Shown piece after piece: positions 7,229 through 31,947 of a DNA stretch of 64,000 nucleotides. Below the pieces are notes generated by a model that was given only the letters and a program-made list of their open reading frames with translations, ran no database searches and had not been told where the DNA came from. How positions within the stretch are numbered: position 1 is the first letter of the stretch; each line of letters starts with the position of its first letter. The position numbers were made by a program, and so were the translations under genes. Source of the DNA: Noviherbaspirillum massiliense JC206 (GTDB lineage: Bacteria; Pseudomonadota; Gammaproteobacteria; Burkholderiales; Burkholderiaceae_D); NCBI RefSeq assembly GCF_000312045.1, contig NZ_HE978634.1, positions 677,940 to 741,939 on the forward strand, given 5' to 3'.

Positions 7229-7654
7229 TTATGCCTGCTTCGGCCACAGGATCATCTGGGTGCAGCGGAAGGTGGCGATCAGCTTGCCGCTGTCGCGGTG
7301 CCGCACCTCGGCATCCCAGACCTGGGTATTGCGCCCGGCGTGCACCGCCTTCGCCTCGCATTCGATCACGCCTTCGCGCGCGGTGCCGATGAAGTTGCTC
7401 TTCAGTTCTATGGTGGTGAAGTTTGCCGCACCTTCCGGCAGGTTGGCGATGCAGGCATAGCCGCAGGCGGTATCGGCGAGAGTGACTACCGTACCTGCAT
7501 GCAAATAGCCGTTGGGTGCGAGGTGCGATTGTTGCACAGCAAGTTCCGCGGCCAGCGATTGCCCGGCGATGCGGGTGACGCGGATGCCGAGCAGGCCCGG
7601 AAGGTAGGGCACTCCGCGCTGGTTGAAGGAATCGGGATCGATGTTCGGCATCAT
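7229..7654 (-). CDS. PaaI-type hotdog-fold thioesterase
   Basis: The 141-residue product carries the hotdog thioesterase core: HLAPNGYLHAGTVVTLADTA (the H-x-G segment and following helix), then FTTIELKSNFIGTAREG and a C-terminal beta strand GKLIATFRCTQMIL. Enzymes of this family hydrolyse acyl-CoA or aryl-CoA thioesters, and the conserved Asp in LADTA is the likely catalytic acid. Consecutive ATGs at 7654 and 7651 are both possible; GGAGAC lies upstream. The frame is open to 8248, but that extension lies antisense to the hydrolase gene. It precedes the DUF1653 gene in an operon. Confidence 0.88.
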   Translation of the reverse strand: MMPNIDPDSFNQRGVPYLPGLLGIRVTRIAGQSLAAELAVQQSHLAPNGYLHAGTVVTLADTACGYACIANLPEGAANFTTIELKSNFIGTAREGVIECEAKAVHAGRNTQVWDAEVRHRDSGKLIATFRCTQMILWPKQA

Positions 7655-7807
7655 GCGTCTCCATGGCGTGGCTGATCCTGCAACTATACCTTGTACATGC
7701 CAAGCCTTCCAATGCAGCTTTCGGGAGCAATGTGTCGACAGCAAGATTGAACTTTGATCAATGGGCTTCATTCCAAACGCATCCTGAACAGGACGGGAGC
7801 TGATGTG

Positions 7808-8851
7808 ATGAGCGATTCCATGCGCAAGAAAAGTCCGTATTCCAAGGAAGCCCCGCATCCCTGGCGCAACATGATGCTGGCCGGTACCGCCGTGGCTCTG
7901 GCCAGCGCGGCACTGGTGGTGCGCAGGCGGACCCAGCAGGCGGAACGCGAGAATCCACCGGCAGGGCAATTCATCGAGGTGGATGGCGTGCGCCTGCATT
8001 ATGTGGAGCGCGGGCAGGGTCAGCCCCTCGTCCTGTTGCACGGCAATGGAACCATGATTCAGGATTTCGACGTCAGCGGCTTGCTCGATCTGGCATCCGA
8101 AAACTATCGCGTGATCGCCTTCGACCGTCCGGGCTATGGCTACAGCGAACGCCCCCGCACTACGCTCTGGACGCCGACTGCGCAGGCCCGGCTGCTGCAC
8201 CGGGCTCTGGGCAGGCTTGGCGTGGAGAAAGCCATCGTGGTTGGACATTCCTGGGGAGCGCTGGTCGCCGTTGCCATGGCGCTCGAGTTCCCGAAGGATG
8301 TGCGCGGACTGGCGCTGCTCTCCGGCTACTACTATCCGAGCATGCGCCTGGACGTGCCGCTGGCCTCGCCGCCGGCCATTCCGGTGATCGGCGACCTGAT
8401 GCGCTACACCGTGTCACCGCTGCTCGGCAGGCTGATGTGGCCCGCCATCCTGCGTCGCCTCTTCGGTCCGGCGCCGGTGCCGGAACGGTTCTCGGCATAT
8501 CCGGTATGGATGAGCCTGCGCCCGTCCCAATTGCGGGCCAGTGCAGCCGAGGCAGCCCTGATGATTCCGGCCGCGTTCCGCCTGCGCAGCCGCTATCACG
8601 AAATCGCCATGCCCGTCACCATCATGGCGGGTGCCGACGACCGCCAGGTCGATCCGCACCGGCAGTCGGAACGCCTGCATGCCGAACTGCCGCAGAGCGA
8701 CCTCAACCTCGCGCCGGGCGCGGGCCACATGATTCACCACCTGGTGCCGCATGAAGTGATGGCTGCGATCGATGCCGTCGCCAGCGCGGTGCGCACGGAA
8801 GGCAGGAGGATGCCGCAGCTTGCCTATCCCGCGCCAGGCACCCTCCAGTGA
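7808..8851 (+). CDS. Alpha/beta hydrolase with N-terminal membrane segment
   Basis: A 347-residue protein starting MSDSMRKKSPYSKEAPHPW, chosen because GGGAG lies about 8 bp before this ATG. A hydrophobic segment (MMLAGTAVALASAALVV) follows and probably anchors it. The fold is clear: LVLLHGNGTM supplies the oxyanion region, VVGHSWGALV the nucleophile elbow with Ser near residue 147, and GADDRQVDP the Asp region. GAGHMIHH near the end carries the catalytic His. The substrate is unknown. It diverges from the thioesterase operon. Confidence 0.88.
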   Translation: MSDSMRKKSPYSKEAPHPWRNMMLAGTAVALASAALVVRRRTQQAERENPPAGQFIEVDGVRLHYVERGQGQPLVLLHGNGTMIQDFDVSGLLDLASENYRVIAFDRPGYGYSERPRTTLWTPTAQARLLHRALGRLGVEKAIVVGHSWGALVAVAMALEFPKDVRGLALLSGYYYPSMRLDVPLASPPAIPVIGDLMRYTVSPLLGRLMWPAILRRLFGPAPVPERFSAYPVWMSLRPSQLRASAAEAALMIPAAFRLRSRYHEIAMPVTIMAGADDRQVDPHRQSERLHAELPQSDLNLAPGAGHMIHHLVPHEVMAAIDAVASAVRTEGRRMPQLAYPAPGTLQ

Positions 8852-28483: not shown

Positions 28484-29626
28484 TCAGACACCCTTGGCGG
28501 TGAGCTCAACGAAGCGCCGCTTGCTGTCCTCGGTTGCCGCCTCGATCTCGCGCGCGGTCTGGGTGGATTCCTTGCGCAGCTCGTCGACCAGCTTGAGGGT
28601 GTGCGCCTGGAATTCGACCACGGCATCCGCCAGCGCCTTGACCGAACTCGCCTGCAGCGTCGAGCCATATCCGGCGCGCAGGCCGGCTTCCAGCTGGGCG
28701 CCGCCGGTCCGGGCCAGATCTTCCAGGCCCTTGTTCATGCCGGCCTTCATTGCTTCCATGGTATTGGTCGCCTCCGACAATCCCGCCATCGAAGTGAAGG
28801 AAGCCGACAGGCCGGTGAACACGACTTCGTTGGTGGCAAAGAAGGTCACGGCGCGCTGGTACAGGCGCTCCTTCACGCTGTGGGTCTGCTGCAGCCGGGC
28901 AAACACGAGCTCCGCGGTGTTGTAGGCAGTCTTCAGGTCGTCGGCGATATCCTTCACCACCTGGTAGGACCTGTCCTCGTTCTGCACGGTCCGCAGCGCT
29001 TCGTCGCGCAGCAGCTCCAGCCGTGCACGCTCGGCGGCATCCTCACCCGTGTAGGTCTCGACCGCGGCATTCGCATTCTGCAAGGCTCCCTTCTTTTCAT
29101 CCAGTGCTGTGGTGGCAGTGTTCAGCAATTCCTGGGCCTGCACTTCGGCCGCCTTGAGCGCCATGCGGAAATCACGGTAAGCCTCGAGTATCGTGTTCTC
29201 GCGCTGGATCTGGTCGTTCGCCGATTCAGCCACCGAATAGTAAGTGTTGCGGATATCGTTGAAGCGGTCCGGAATGGAGCCGCGCCGCATCTTCATCCAG
29301 TTCATGCGCATGCGTTCGCGGAAGTCCAGCTTGCCATCGGCGGTCCATTGCGCCATCTGCTGCGCATCGTCCCGGATGGAGTTGAATCGCTCGGCAATGT
29401 CGGCATAGCGGGTGGAAATATCCATGCCGGCGATCTGCTCCCGCACCGCGGCGTTGAATGAGGAGGATTGCTGCAGGGTAGTGGCGATCGACGTCACCTT
29501 TGCATTGTCGTAATGCTCGATCTTTTCCAGGATCGGTATGACCGGCGCGCTCTGCTCGGCCTGGATATTGATGCCGATGGTGCGCAGCGCCGACACCGCG
29601 CGGTCAAGATAATTTACAGGCAGCAT
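28484..29626 (-). CDS. Helical TelA/KlaA-like protein, first gene of the operon
   Basis: A 380-residue, almost wholly helical cytoplasmic protein starting MLPVNYLDRAVSALRTIGIN, with AAGGAAT upstream. The repeated polar helices (QRENTILEAYRDFRMALKAA; HTLKLVDELRKESTQTAREI) and the central ERLYQRAVTFFATNEVVFTG segment resemble TelA/KlaA toxic-anion-resistance proteins, and related proteins are often called cell surface protein. I could not confirm the family. TelA-type proteins occur in stress systems that include tellurite resistance, so a membrane-stress role for this operon is plausible but unproved. Confidence 0.7.
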   Translation of the reverse strand: MLPVNYLDRAVSALRTIGINIQAEQSAPVIPILEKIEHYDNAKVTSIATTLQQSSSFNAAVREQIAGMDISTRYADIAERFNSIRDDAQQMAQWTADGKLDFRERMRMNWMKMRRGSIPDRFNDIRNTYYSVAESANDQIQRENTILEAYRDFRMALKAAEVQAQELLNTATTALDEKKGALQNANAAVETYTGEDAAERARLELLRDEALRTVQNEDRSYQVVKDIADDLKTAYNTAELVFARLQQTHSVKERLYQRAVTFFATNEVVFTGLSASFTSMAGLSEATNTMEAMKAGMNKGLEDLARTGGAQLEAGLRAGYGSTLQASSVKALADAVVEFQAHTLKLVDELRKESTQTAREIEAATEDSKRRFVELTAKGV

Positions 29627-30056
29627 GAAAATTCCTTCCGTTCCGGTTATCCACGTTCCGCCGGGTGACCGGCAGGCATACTGCTATGGACAGGAATCGG
29701 AGGAAATCGATCTCGTGAAGGCGTAGCGGATGTGCCGAATTGCCGAAGTAAAACTTCAAGCTCACTTAGGAGTTGCGCGGGCGGTTCGGAAGGGGAAGAA
29801 CAATCCATGGCCGCATGGTGTTGATTGCCAAGACAGGCACCTGACACTTTGTTGCAAGGAAAGGGGTTTCTACGAGCATTTCCGGCAGCTGTACGCTTGC
29901 CGCTCGTAGCGATTGGCGCAATGGTGACGCAGAATCCATGTCGGCACGGCCGTTAATGAGCGCATCACAGATGCCGGATAGTCGACTGCAGGCTGCTCCC
30001 TCATGCCATCCCTATCGATCAGTCCCTTGTACTTCGGGGGAGTCCATATACGACAA
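29627..30056. other. Intergenic region upstream of the TelA-like operon
   Basis: About 430 bp with no credible gene. Its right end meets the boundary of the cassette-like segment at 30057. The sequence right next to the boundary, GTATATGGACTCCCCCGAAG on the minus strand, is not part of an attC site and could be the edge of an old insertion. The promoter of the TelA-like operon should be in the left part. Confidence 0.45.
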
Positions 30057-30063
30057 GTTAGAC
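30057..30063 (-). repeat. Half attC-like core heptamer at the end of the second cassette
   Basis: On the minus strand this is GTCTAAC, a perfect match to the inverse core RYYYAAC of an integron attC site, 2 bp after the stop codon of the gene at 30065. No partner GTTRRRY core is found in the next 100 bp, so the site appears cut short. Confidence 0.45.
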
Positions 30064-30064
30064 A

Positions 30065-30418
30065 TCACGACGCGGATTTGCAATCTTTCCAATTCCGATA
30101 AACCTTTCCATTTTTTGGTGAGATGAAAGCGAACTCTTTAAGTATCGGAGGCCTGGATGTACCGTTATGCACAATGACGCAACCATGCATTAAGCCAAAG
30201 GAGCCGTAGTAATCGCCTTCGAATTTTGACCGTCCGAAAACAATACCAGCGTTGGGCTTTCCAATTCCTGTAATGGTTACTTCAAAATCGTTACCTGCCA
30301 CGTAAGTACAATAGTCATCTCCGCATTGCTTGTTCTTTTCGATCTCTGCAGTAAGGTCCGACTGCGCAATTGCAAATTTGGCAGAAAGCAAAAGCACAAA
30401 TAACGTTATAAGTCGCAT
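30065..30418 (-). CDS. Small exported protein carried in an integron-like cassette
   Basis: A 117-residue protein with a signal peptide (MRLITLFVLLLSAKFAIAQS). The mature part has two Cys in CGDDYC, one in GCVIVHN and one near the end (WKDCKS), so disulfides are likely. No family is recognised. The gene is AT-richer than the window. Its ATG starts 7 bp after the core heptamer GTTAGAC of the attC-like site, the spacing usual in gene cassettes, and its stop lies 2 bp before another core-like heptamer. Confidence 0.65.
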   Translation of the reverse strand: MRLITLFVLLLSAKFAIAQSDLTAEIEKNKQCGDDYCTYVAGNDFEVTITGIGKPNAGIVFGRSKFEGDYYGSFGLMHGCVIVHNGTSRPPILKEFAFISPKNGKVYRNWKDCKSAS

Positions 30419-30425
30419 TCTTGAT

Positions 30426-30509
30426 GTCTAACGCCGAGCTAACCGGTCGCAACCCTGCCGCGAAGCGGCGGTCTTCGGTTGCGAGTCCGGGTTCAGCGAC
30501 GAGTTAAAG
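30426..30509 (-). repeat. attC-like recombination site (59-base element) of an integron
   Basis: Read on the minus strand, 84 bp begin with CTTTAAC and end with GTTAGAC, the two R-type core heptamers. Inside, GCTGAACC pairs with GGTTAGC except for one extra G, the extrahelical base of attC L boxes. The R and L boxes are separated by 5 unpaired bases on each side. The centre carries two further stems (CGCAACC/GGTTGCG and GCCGC/GCGGC). The upstream gene's stop codon lies inside CTTTAAC. All this is attC architecture; no integrase is in the window. Confidence 0.75.
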
Positions 30510-30824
30510 TTCTTCATATCGCTCATGAATAAGAGCTTCCCAAAGTCGTAAAGCTGCTTCAACCGTTGGAGCTTTGAGTTCCTTAGTCTCAAGTTCTTCT
30601 GTCATATCGACGTCAGAGTATTTGGTGTAAATACCATACCAGCTCTGAAAAATGTTAAGTGTGTACAAAGGGCCATCTTGGCTACCACACTCAATCCAGC
30701 AGTCAGGATGTTCATCATCTCTTGGTGACGTAAATAGTTCAGTCAGTGCGTTGCGGAGAGTGGTCGAATCAACGATTTGGGTTGTAACACCATAGCGTGT
30801 GGTCAATGTTGTCCATTCGTGCAT
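30504..30824 (-). CDS. Hypothetical cassette protein, possibly immunity-like
   Basis: A 106-residue soluble protein, MHEWTTLTTRYGVTTQIVDS, with acidic, Trp-rich composition (HPDCWIECGSQDGPLYTLNI; MTEELETKELKAPTVEAALR). It resembles small immunity proteins in length and character, but I can name no family. It is AT-richer than its surroundings. The stop codon TAA is inside the first core of the attC-like site, and a GTTAAAG heptamer stands 15 bp before the ATG (30839-30845), so the gene is probably a complete integron cassette. Confidence 0.6.
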   Translation of the reverse strand: MHEWTTLTTRYGVTTQIVDSTTLRNALTELFTSPRDDEHPDCWIECGSQDGPLYTLNIFQSWYGIYTKYSDVDMTEELETKELKAPTVEAALRLWEALIHERYEEL

Positions 30825-31242
30825 GAGAATTCTCTAAACTTTAACTGTAATTTATATGGACAGCGACGTCCGCTATGCACGGAGCACTGTCCGTTATGCA
30901 TCGTCCGCCACTTGGCGCAAACCGGTAGAGTACTTGGGTTTTTGCCTTTATCCCCGACTTATACGGATAGATAAAAATCCGTGAAAGACGGACAGTCCGG
31001 ATCAGATGGGACGGAGGGCAGTGTAGAAGGAAAATATGCTTGCAGCAATTAGCCGCGCATATGTGTGGCAACAAATGAACGCTCGGTTCTGACCGGACAT
31101 TGCTGCTTGCGTCATCCGCATTATTACGGGCTTCGGTACAACGATCAGACCGAGACAGACCGGAAGAGCGCTTGAGACGTCGGGAAGTCGTTGCCCGACT
31201 TGCGAATGCAAACCGGGCTCTGCCATACAAGAACCGTTACCG
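30825..31242. other. Intergenic region between the cassette genes and gspB
   Basis: About 420 bp with no supported gene. It starts with the GTTAAAG-type heptamer (30839-30845, minus strand). GTCCGCTATGCA at 30868 and GTCCGTTATGCA at 30889 are near-identical 12-mers exactly 21 bp apart. The segment near 31075 (AACGCTCGGTTCTGACCGGA) resembles degenerate cassette-associated sequence, but I could not fold an attC from it. Confidence 0.4.
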
Positions 31243-31947
31243 CTAATACCCGCTGCGGTAGCGAAGGCCCTTGTAATTCAGCACCATCCCGTCCGGCATC
31301 ATCTTCTCCAGCACCAGGCCGGGTGCGACCTGGTCGCCTTCGCGCAGCAGACGGTTGTTGATCACCACTGAGCGGTCGGCAGGATTGCCGGCGTAGAGGT
31401 AGCCGCCGACCGACAGCGCCGGAAGTTCGCGCTGTATCTGCTGCGGCAGGTCCTTGCGGGCGGGAAGGTTTTCCGTTGCGGCAGCCGCGACCTGCACTGG
31501 CTCCGGCTTGCGGGTGTCGTTGGATGCAGTGTGGGTTCGGCGCGTCTTCTTCGTACGCCTGGGCTTGGCTTCCACCGGCTTTTCCTCTGGCGCCGGCTTT
31601 GCCTCGGCCGGAGGTGCAGGCTCGGTGTGCCGGGGAGGCGCGGCGGGTGGCGTCGAGGCCTGCGGTGCCGGCGCAGGCTGCACCTGGGCCGCGACCGGGG
31701 CCGTGGCAGGCGTCGCGGGAGTGGCAGCAGGCTTGGGCGAGGGCGCTGCCTGCCAGGGCTTCATCCATGCGAATCCGATCAGCGCCGCAGCGCAGGCGCT
31801 TGCGCCGGCCCAGATCCAGGGGCGATCCCAGCGTGCGTGGCTCGACGCACGCGTTGCGCTGAAGCTGGGCGGCACCTGCAGCGGCCGGAGAGTTTCGGCA
31901 CTGCGTTCGGCTTCCGCTTTTTTCAGGGCATCGAGAATGTAGGACAT
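31243..31947 (-). CDS. gspB: GspB/ExeB-type secretion assembly protein
   Basis: A 234-residue protein from the ATG at 31947. It opens with MSYILDALKKAEAERSAETL, the N-terminal motif of GspB proteins, followed by a membrane segment (WIWAGASACAAALIGFAWM). A long Pro/Ala-rich linker of about 90 residues and a KPRRTKKTRRTH patch reach a C-terminal domain (residues about 170-234, LSVGGYLYAGNPADRSVVIN) that matches the type II secretion B domain. With ExeA it helps place the secretin in the cell wall. It lies 4 bp after exeA. No other T2SS gene is nearby. Confidence 0.9.
   Translation of the reverse strand: MSYILDALKKAEAERSAETLRPLQVPPSFSATRASSHARWDRPWIWAGASACAAALIGFAWMKPWQAAPSPKPAATPATPATAPVAAQVQPAPAPQASTPPAAPPRHTEPAPPAEAKPAPEEKPVEAKPRRTKKTRRTHTASNDTRKPEPVQVAAAATENLPARKDLPQQIQRELPALSVGGYLYAGNPADRSVVINNRLLREGDQVAPGLVLEKMMPDGMVLNYKGLRYRSGY

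Follow-up and report, generated by a model that had tools for sequence, protein, structure and literature searches.

A probable remnant of a chromosomal integron in Noviherbaspirillum massiliense, with a decayed attI, two cassettes, a putative IS1111-type end and no integrase gene

How does an attC, the recombination site of a gene cassette, come to lie between two AT-rich genes in a piece of chromosome that holds no integron integrase? The question is raised by a site near the middle of the window, by which is meant the whole 64,000-nucleotide stretch that was analysed, and the original prediction had answered it with an attC cluster without its integrase or a piece of a larger array. Loot et al. 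reportedly described in 2024 the insertion of cassettes at attG sites. For integrase-less attCs the choice between decayed integrons and attG-inserted cassettes has been discussed in Xanthomonas, where chromosomal integrons have inactivated or lost intI and sets of cassettes are also found away from the main integron (PMC12444791), and attC clusters without integrase (CALIN) are proposed in the IntegronFinder 2.0 paper to be degraded integrons (PMC9024848). The window locus is very probably the remnant of a chromosomal integron, laid out as attI, cassette A, attC, cassette B and an IS-interrupted attC, from which intI has gone. Legible in its sequence are a decayed attI, cassette A with a complete attC, cassette B with the R'' half of another, and the right end of an IS, lying at the point of entry that the element commonly uses when it invades attC-like sites of the genus. 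The features are as follows.

30839..30991, minus strand: decayed attI and intI promoter region, located by an attI profile; core GTTAAAG at 30845-30839; two repeats, TGCATAACGGAC and TGCATAGCGGAC, lie within it
30981..30989, plus strand: GTGAAAGAC, likely the first three codons of the lost intI (nine-base match)
30432..30844, minus strand: cassette A, 413 bp, beginning with the TTAAAG that follows the attI core and ending with the G of R'
30504..30824, minus strand: cassette A gene, 106-aa ORF of no known family, with its stop inside R''
30426..30509, minus strand: complete attC of cassette A (attC_A), from sequence, fold and covariance model
30509-30503, minus strand: R'' of attC_A, CTTTAAC, followed by a 5-nt spacer (30502-30498)
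30497-30491, minus strand: L'' of attC_A, GCT-G-AAC, with the extra G at 30494 and the internal stem next
30443-30438, minus strand: L' of attC_A, GTTAGC, followed by a 5-nt spacer (30437-30433)
30432-30426, minus strand: R' of attC_A, GTTAGAC
30065..30418, minus strand: cassette B gene, 117-aa ORF of no known family
30057..30063, minus strand: R'' box of the cassette B attC, GTCTAAC, the remainder of the site being interrupted
29880..30050, minus strand: right end (about 171 nt) of a putative IS1111-type element, recognised by copies in relatives, its remainder lost

The consensus cores of attC sites are RYYYAAC for R'' and GTTRRRY for R', and their L'' and L' boxes pair with one extrahelical base and are set off from the cores by spacers of 5-6 nt. 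On the minus strand, along which both flanking genes are also read, attC_A has the order R''-spacer-L''-stem-L'-spacer-R'; its R'' departs from the consensus at the first base only, its R' fits, and its L boxes pair around a single extrahelical base, with spacers of 5 and 5 nt. The original prediction had described an 84-bp attC with R cores, L boxes bearing an extra G, five-base spacers and a stem, and each of these elements was recovered in place, as were the upstream stop codon inside the first core (the TAA of gene A, 30506-30504, within R'') and the next ATG 7 bp past the second core (gene B begins at 30418 and R' ends at 30426). The cassette strand carries G as its extra base, a choice shared with three of the 16 sites used for the covariance model described below; the other 13 have C. 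IntI recombines attCs by way of their bottom strand in its folded form. As single-stranded DNA, the plus strand of the 84 nt, which is the attC bottom strand, is predicted to fold better (-22.3 kcal/mol, z -3.14, one of 200 shuffles as good) than the minus strand (-19.5 kcal/mol, z -1.91, 6/200). The site is 83% identical over 77 nt to one in a relative, G004 (blastn against the fetched loci), and 75% identical to a sister site elsewhere in its own genome, at C2:902.0k. Rfam gave no match in the window at gathering thresholds.

A covariance model had been proposed as a check, and one, here called R1, was built from 16 aligned attCs of the same genus and family, with the window site left out; it is distinct from the published attC model. 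It gave attC_A 38.3 bits (E 7.2e-7), the second-best match in the window reaching 9.9 bits, and on twelve control stretches around gspB of relatives (198 kb) it made a single match at E up to 5, of 14.3 bits. At the same threshold there were 76 matches in all 43 sources searched, which comprise 784 kb and were in many cases selected because they hold integrons. Standard pairs fill 87.5% of the pair cells of the R1 alignment, as against 73% in shuffles, a difference that is no independent evidence since the sites had been chosen by pairing. Of two home-made scanners the first was too loose and was replaced; the second made three matches in the window with attC_A on top (21.0 against 20.3 and 17.6) and 4, 4 and 3 matches in three block shuffles, so that it cannot tell attC_A from chance and was used for the collection of candidates only. 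Judged by its elements, fold and model score, 30426-30509 is a genuine gene-cassette recombination site.

The first bases of a cassette are complementary to its own R'', because both meet in the circular form. The ends of cassette A, AGTTAAAGTT and AACTTTAACT, pair at ten of ten positions (100%; 30837-30846 with 30502-30511), and those of cassette B, GTTAGACATCACGA and TCTTGATGTCTAAC, over 14 nt at 93% (30057-30070 with 30419-30432), and of the six inverted repeats recorded in the 1.6-kb region the pair of B is the first and that of A the last. The claim that the attC stands between two cassette genes is thereby borne out by ends that match each other within each cassette: A is complete, with ORF, attC and a start complementary to R'', and B has its start and R'' and an interrupted attC. 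These self-matching ends, the decayed attI and the IS end in the flanks had all escaped the original prediction. Another inverted repeat running across the cassettes, GTCCATATA, was dropped, one of its arms being attI and the other the IS end.

Each of the two cassettes contributes one small protein. Neither has a Pfam or NCBIfam match, and the N-terminus of the cassette B protein resembles, by eye, a signal peptide. The cassette A protein (P0001) was found in two of 60 genomes, its own included, with 27% identity (E 3e-4) in the other, and among 399 genomes in its own only. The cassette B protein (P0002) was found in three of the 399, again with its own included, and has weak relatives in two Aeromonas plasmids and one short match among 19 candidate genome-contig stretches; the relatives of the two proteins gave no function. 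The search of plasmids gave no match for the DNA of 29650-31100 or for P0001. With 46% G+C, the kilobase 30001-31000 lies below the other 63 kilobase bins of the window (49.7%-68.3%).

The DNA upstream of cassette A bears on how the cassettes came to be here. The absence of an integrase from the window, as originally claimed, was upheld: all nine matches of the genome to TIGR02249 (E up to 0.001) lie elsewhere, so that no intI stands beside the attC; tblastn with the genome's own C2 IntI gave nothing convincing in 29601-31300 (best E 0.24), and tblastn for intI in 29627-31243 gave nothing at E up to 1. An attI profile was made from six intI-attI regions of the genus (own C2, G001, G004, G005, G009 and G012), and it matches the window from 30991 to 30841 with 27.2 bits (E 3.8e-7 in a search of 22 sequences), the match ending in the core of cassette A, which places the putative attI directly before the first cassette. 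The second-best match in the window has 3.9 bits, the same twelve gspB control stretches stay at or below 4.0 bits, and when the segment was shuffled 500 times a match arose in only eight cases, none above 6.4 bits. Moreover, in a blastn search with 29620-31243, the stretch 30842-30900 proved 78% identical over 59 nt to sequence directly preceding a full-length intI in G012. Integrons that carry intI and lie outside the training set scored 3.0 (G015), 13.0 (G030), 15.0 (G005) and 16.3 bits (own C1), which marks the profile as narrow and places the window site close to the trained subgroup. We regard the strength of the attI match as moderate. The profile match begins at GTGAAAGAC, and the same nine bases stand at the start of intI in G004 and G009; a match of nine bases is suggestive of the start codons of a lost intI. 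The LexA-like CTGT-N8-ACAG box seen by eye in relatives has been lost at the window attI.

It could be held that there was never an integron at this place, and that cassettes from another one were inserted at a non-classical attG by an IntI acting in trans. Insertion of this kind is a described process (PMC12901181, PMC12444791); the locus has no intI, two full-length intI genes lie elsewhere in the genome, and the window cassettes, like attG-inserted ones, are away from a working integron. The flank tells against it, as the roughly 150 bp that immediately precede cassette A match the attI-intI promoter regions of the genus right up to the core, whereas attG insertion would leave the cassettes against an unrelated, non-attI chromosomal target, and we hold this explanation to be highly unlikely. 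Since the attI is still recognisable, the locus is better read as the remnant of an integron than as an off-target insertion or a piece of a longer array. The original prediction was thus right about the missing integrase; its larger array is the less likely reading, and its cluster says too much, there being one complete attC and one interrupted R'' half. A profile of the lineage's own attI points to decay at the window locus, and offers a simple test for other integrase-less cassettes.

If the locus is indeed an integron remnant, its history may be outlined as follows. An integron would once have stood here, and cassettes A and B would have entered its attI through IntI-mediated attI x attC recombination; an attC-targeting IS would later have entered the attC of cassette B, and losses would then have removed intI on one side and, on the other, most of the IS together with anything beyond it. 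As for the present, the two full-length IntI proteins that the genome encodes at other loci may still be able to act in trans on attC_A.

Elements of the IS1111 family that target attC are said to have been described by Tetu and Holmes in 2008 and by Post and Hall in 2009. In the window, the R'' of cassette B is followed by six more bases, after which TATATGGACTCC begins, and with 29640-30056 as query, seven of 35 genomes yielded 22 matches between them, the window and its own genome included. The segment after cassette B had been considered as a cassette-borne gene and was given up when its copies showed an IS end. Full copies of the element measure 1,448-1,450 bp in all four examined, each with ATGGACTC repeats near both ends, and the one checked for its protein (in G010) encodes a transposase of the IS110/IS1111 kind (PF02371, 2.5e-26; PF01548, 8.7e-11). 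AAC precedes 15 of 20 distinct IS ends at the distance seen in the window, and is missing from that position in the other five. The count draws on 18 ends caught by script, 15 of them positive, and on two (L131 and L137) found by eye to lack AAC; among the 21 loci with other IS matches, L133 has no left flank, L148 repeats another context and L138 holds a second end. When the flanks of the four full copies were joined, with the ends set by the published 3-bp and 7-bp extensions, three of the four joins (L149, L151 and L152) looked attC-like by eye; the scanner scored two of these three, L149 on the opposite strand, and left L150 and L151 unscored. The IS thus appears to lie mostly at attC-like sites elsewhere in the genus, and the window copy, a fragment, shares its end and target position with the full copies in relatives.

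These features fit the attC-targeting IS1111-family elements, such as ISKpn4 and ISPst6, described in PMC11187229: the genus IS is alike in its DEDD transposase (one copy checked), its subterminal inverted repeats, its insertion at attC-like sites and the noncoding stretch, about 275 nt long, that follows its transposase gene. The window differs in keeping only the right ~171 nt. At C1:553k of the same genome (L117 and L153) two oppositely oriented ends of the attC-targeting IS enclose a lone attC (33.2 bits); the attI profile has no match there. In the window, 28484-29626 (minus strand) encodes a 380-aa protein that has no Pfam match and for which 59 relatives gave no counterpart at E up to 1e-20.

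Set beside the known systems, the locus resembles the Xanthomonas case (PMC12444791) in that cassettes are kept and intI is broken or gone; it differs in having two cassettes, a recognisable attI and a far end cut by an IS. With CALIN elements it shares an attC that has no intI nearby, but its attI can still be recognised, and with one complete attC it falls short of the IntegronFinder 2.0 default of at least two attCs without intI (PMC9024848). The kind, the parts, the mechanism and the decay of such an integron are already known; the interest lies in the attI test and in a layout that is repeated in this genome.

Where the chromosomal surroundings are concerned, four of twelve relatives have gspB adjacent to a gene which in the window is found at about 8-9 kb, six have other DNA of about 2.1-6.6 kb before that neighbour, and in two the neighbour is outside the examined stretch. 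In the window, about 22 kb of mostly metabolic genes (9.4-31.2 kb) separate gspB from its usual convergent neighbour. It is these 22 kb that differ, and not the integron alone, so that no clean empty site can be shown at this locus. In the inserts beside gspB in relatives the covariance model found no attC; the loose scanner picked out a single site there, a weak one scoring 17.4 in the insert of G009.

A clean empty site can be shown, by comparison with relatives, for a second unit on contig C1, at C1:1810k (L155, C1:1809001-1812500, positions 1074-2013), in which an attI (69.8 bits with the profile), an ORF, an attC (55.4 bits with R1) and a second ORF lie without intI between fliR and flgL. 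It forms an addition of about 1 kb, the fliR and flgL alignments ending 1,163 bp apart (gene names by eye). Of 19 fliR loci in relatives (the best from among 29 further genomes that have FliR), three lack a flgL match, and in the 16 with both genes the gap is 29-213 bp in 15 and 828 bp in the last, the gaps of minus-oriented loci having been recomputed by hand; at E up to 1, no attC turned up in any of these 19 loci. A third intI-less unit, at C1:2517k (L024, C1:2510001-2526000, about 7250-8340), has attI-like repeats and attCs of 32.9 and 48.3 bits, and adjoins, by eye, an aldehyde dehydrogenase-like gene; a 278-aa frame reads through its first attC. The attI profile gives it 7.3 bits (E 0.47), yet it aligns with the window across 67 nt at 74.6% identity.

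The repeated layout raises the thought that the window locus is not a decayed integron at all, and is instead an active mobile unit composed of attI and cassettes, which has no intI of its own and relies on an integrase elsewhere. The similar unit added between fliR and flgL speaks for it, as does C1:2517k, which shares 43 nt at 77% with the window around the intI start (E 0.005), extending slightly past the start codons. Beyond these 43 nt, however, blastn found no left end shared by the three units (right ends were compared by eye only), the window and 1810k units have one complete attC each, the LexA-like box is missing from the window unit, and simple loss of intI accounts for all three loci. 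For the window this possibility therefore appears remote, and that the three attI plus two-cassette units spread by means of an integrase elsewhere, as opposed to three independent decays, appears very improbable.

That the site is no attC at all, and merely a hairpin formed by chance or some repeat, for example a terminator or REP, is next to negligible, since beside one R'' base off consensus and an extra G in place of C stand a model score far above that of the second window match, sister sites in its own genome and in G004, and cassette ends that match. R1 itself is incompletely sensitive, as it gives the close G004 twin of attC_A just 22.2 bits (E 0.06), while its matches at E up to 5 do not include the sister site C2:902.0k.

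For the genome itself (G000; 4.19 Mb in three contigs) a search for intI and further attCs had also been suggested; this revealed two full-length intI genes above the TIGR02249 cut-off, at C2:288.7k and C1:1.0k, and at least 15 attC-model matches at E up to 10, with 150 of 2044 first-look candidates scored, which is probably why the window site and C2:902.0k are missing from the genome-wide result. Of the remaining TIGR02249 matches, that at C2:271.9k carries internal stops and the others are weaker, some of them probably of the XerC/XerD type. Among 60 genomes, this one included, 22 have a TIGR02249 match at E up to 1e-60. The attI profile reaches at most 7.9 bits at C2:900k and 5.8 bits at C2:860k. 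An integrase-less run of five attC sites lies in C2:892001-912000 (L023, 8199-10096), four of them found by R1 and the fifth by similarity to attC_A, and one of its cassettes encodes a COQ7 family protein (E 7e-37). Both ends of C1 are inside attC sequence (L009:1-56 and L073:19952-20000), so that the assembly breaks, or closes, within a cassette array beside a full-length intI; the second cassette encodes a ColE5 immunity-like protein.
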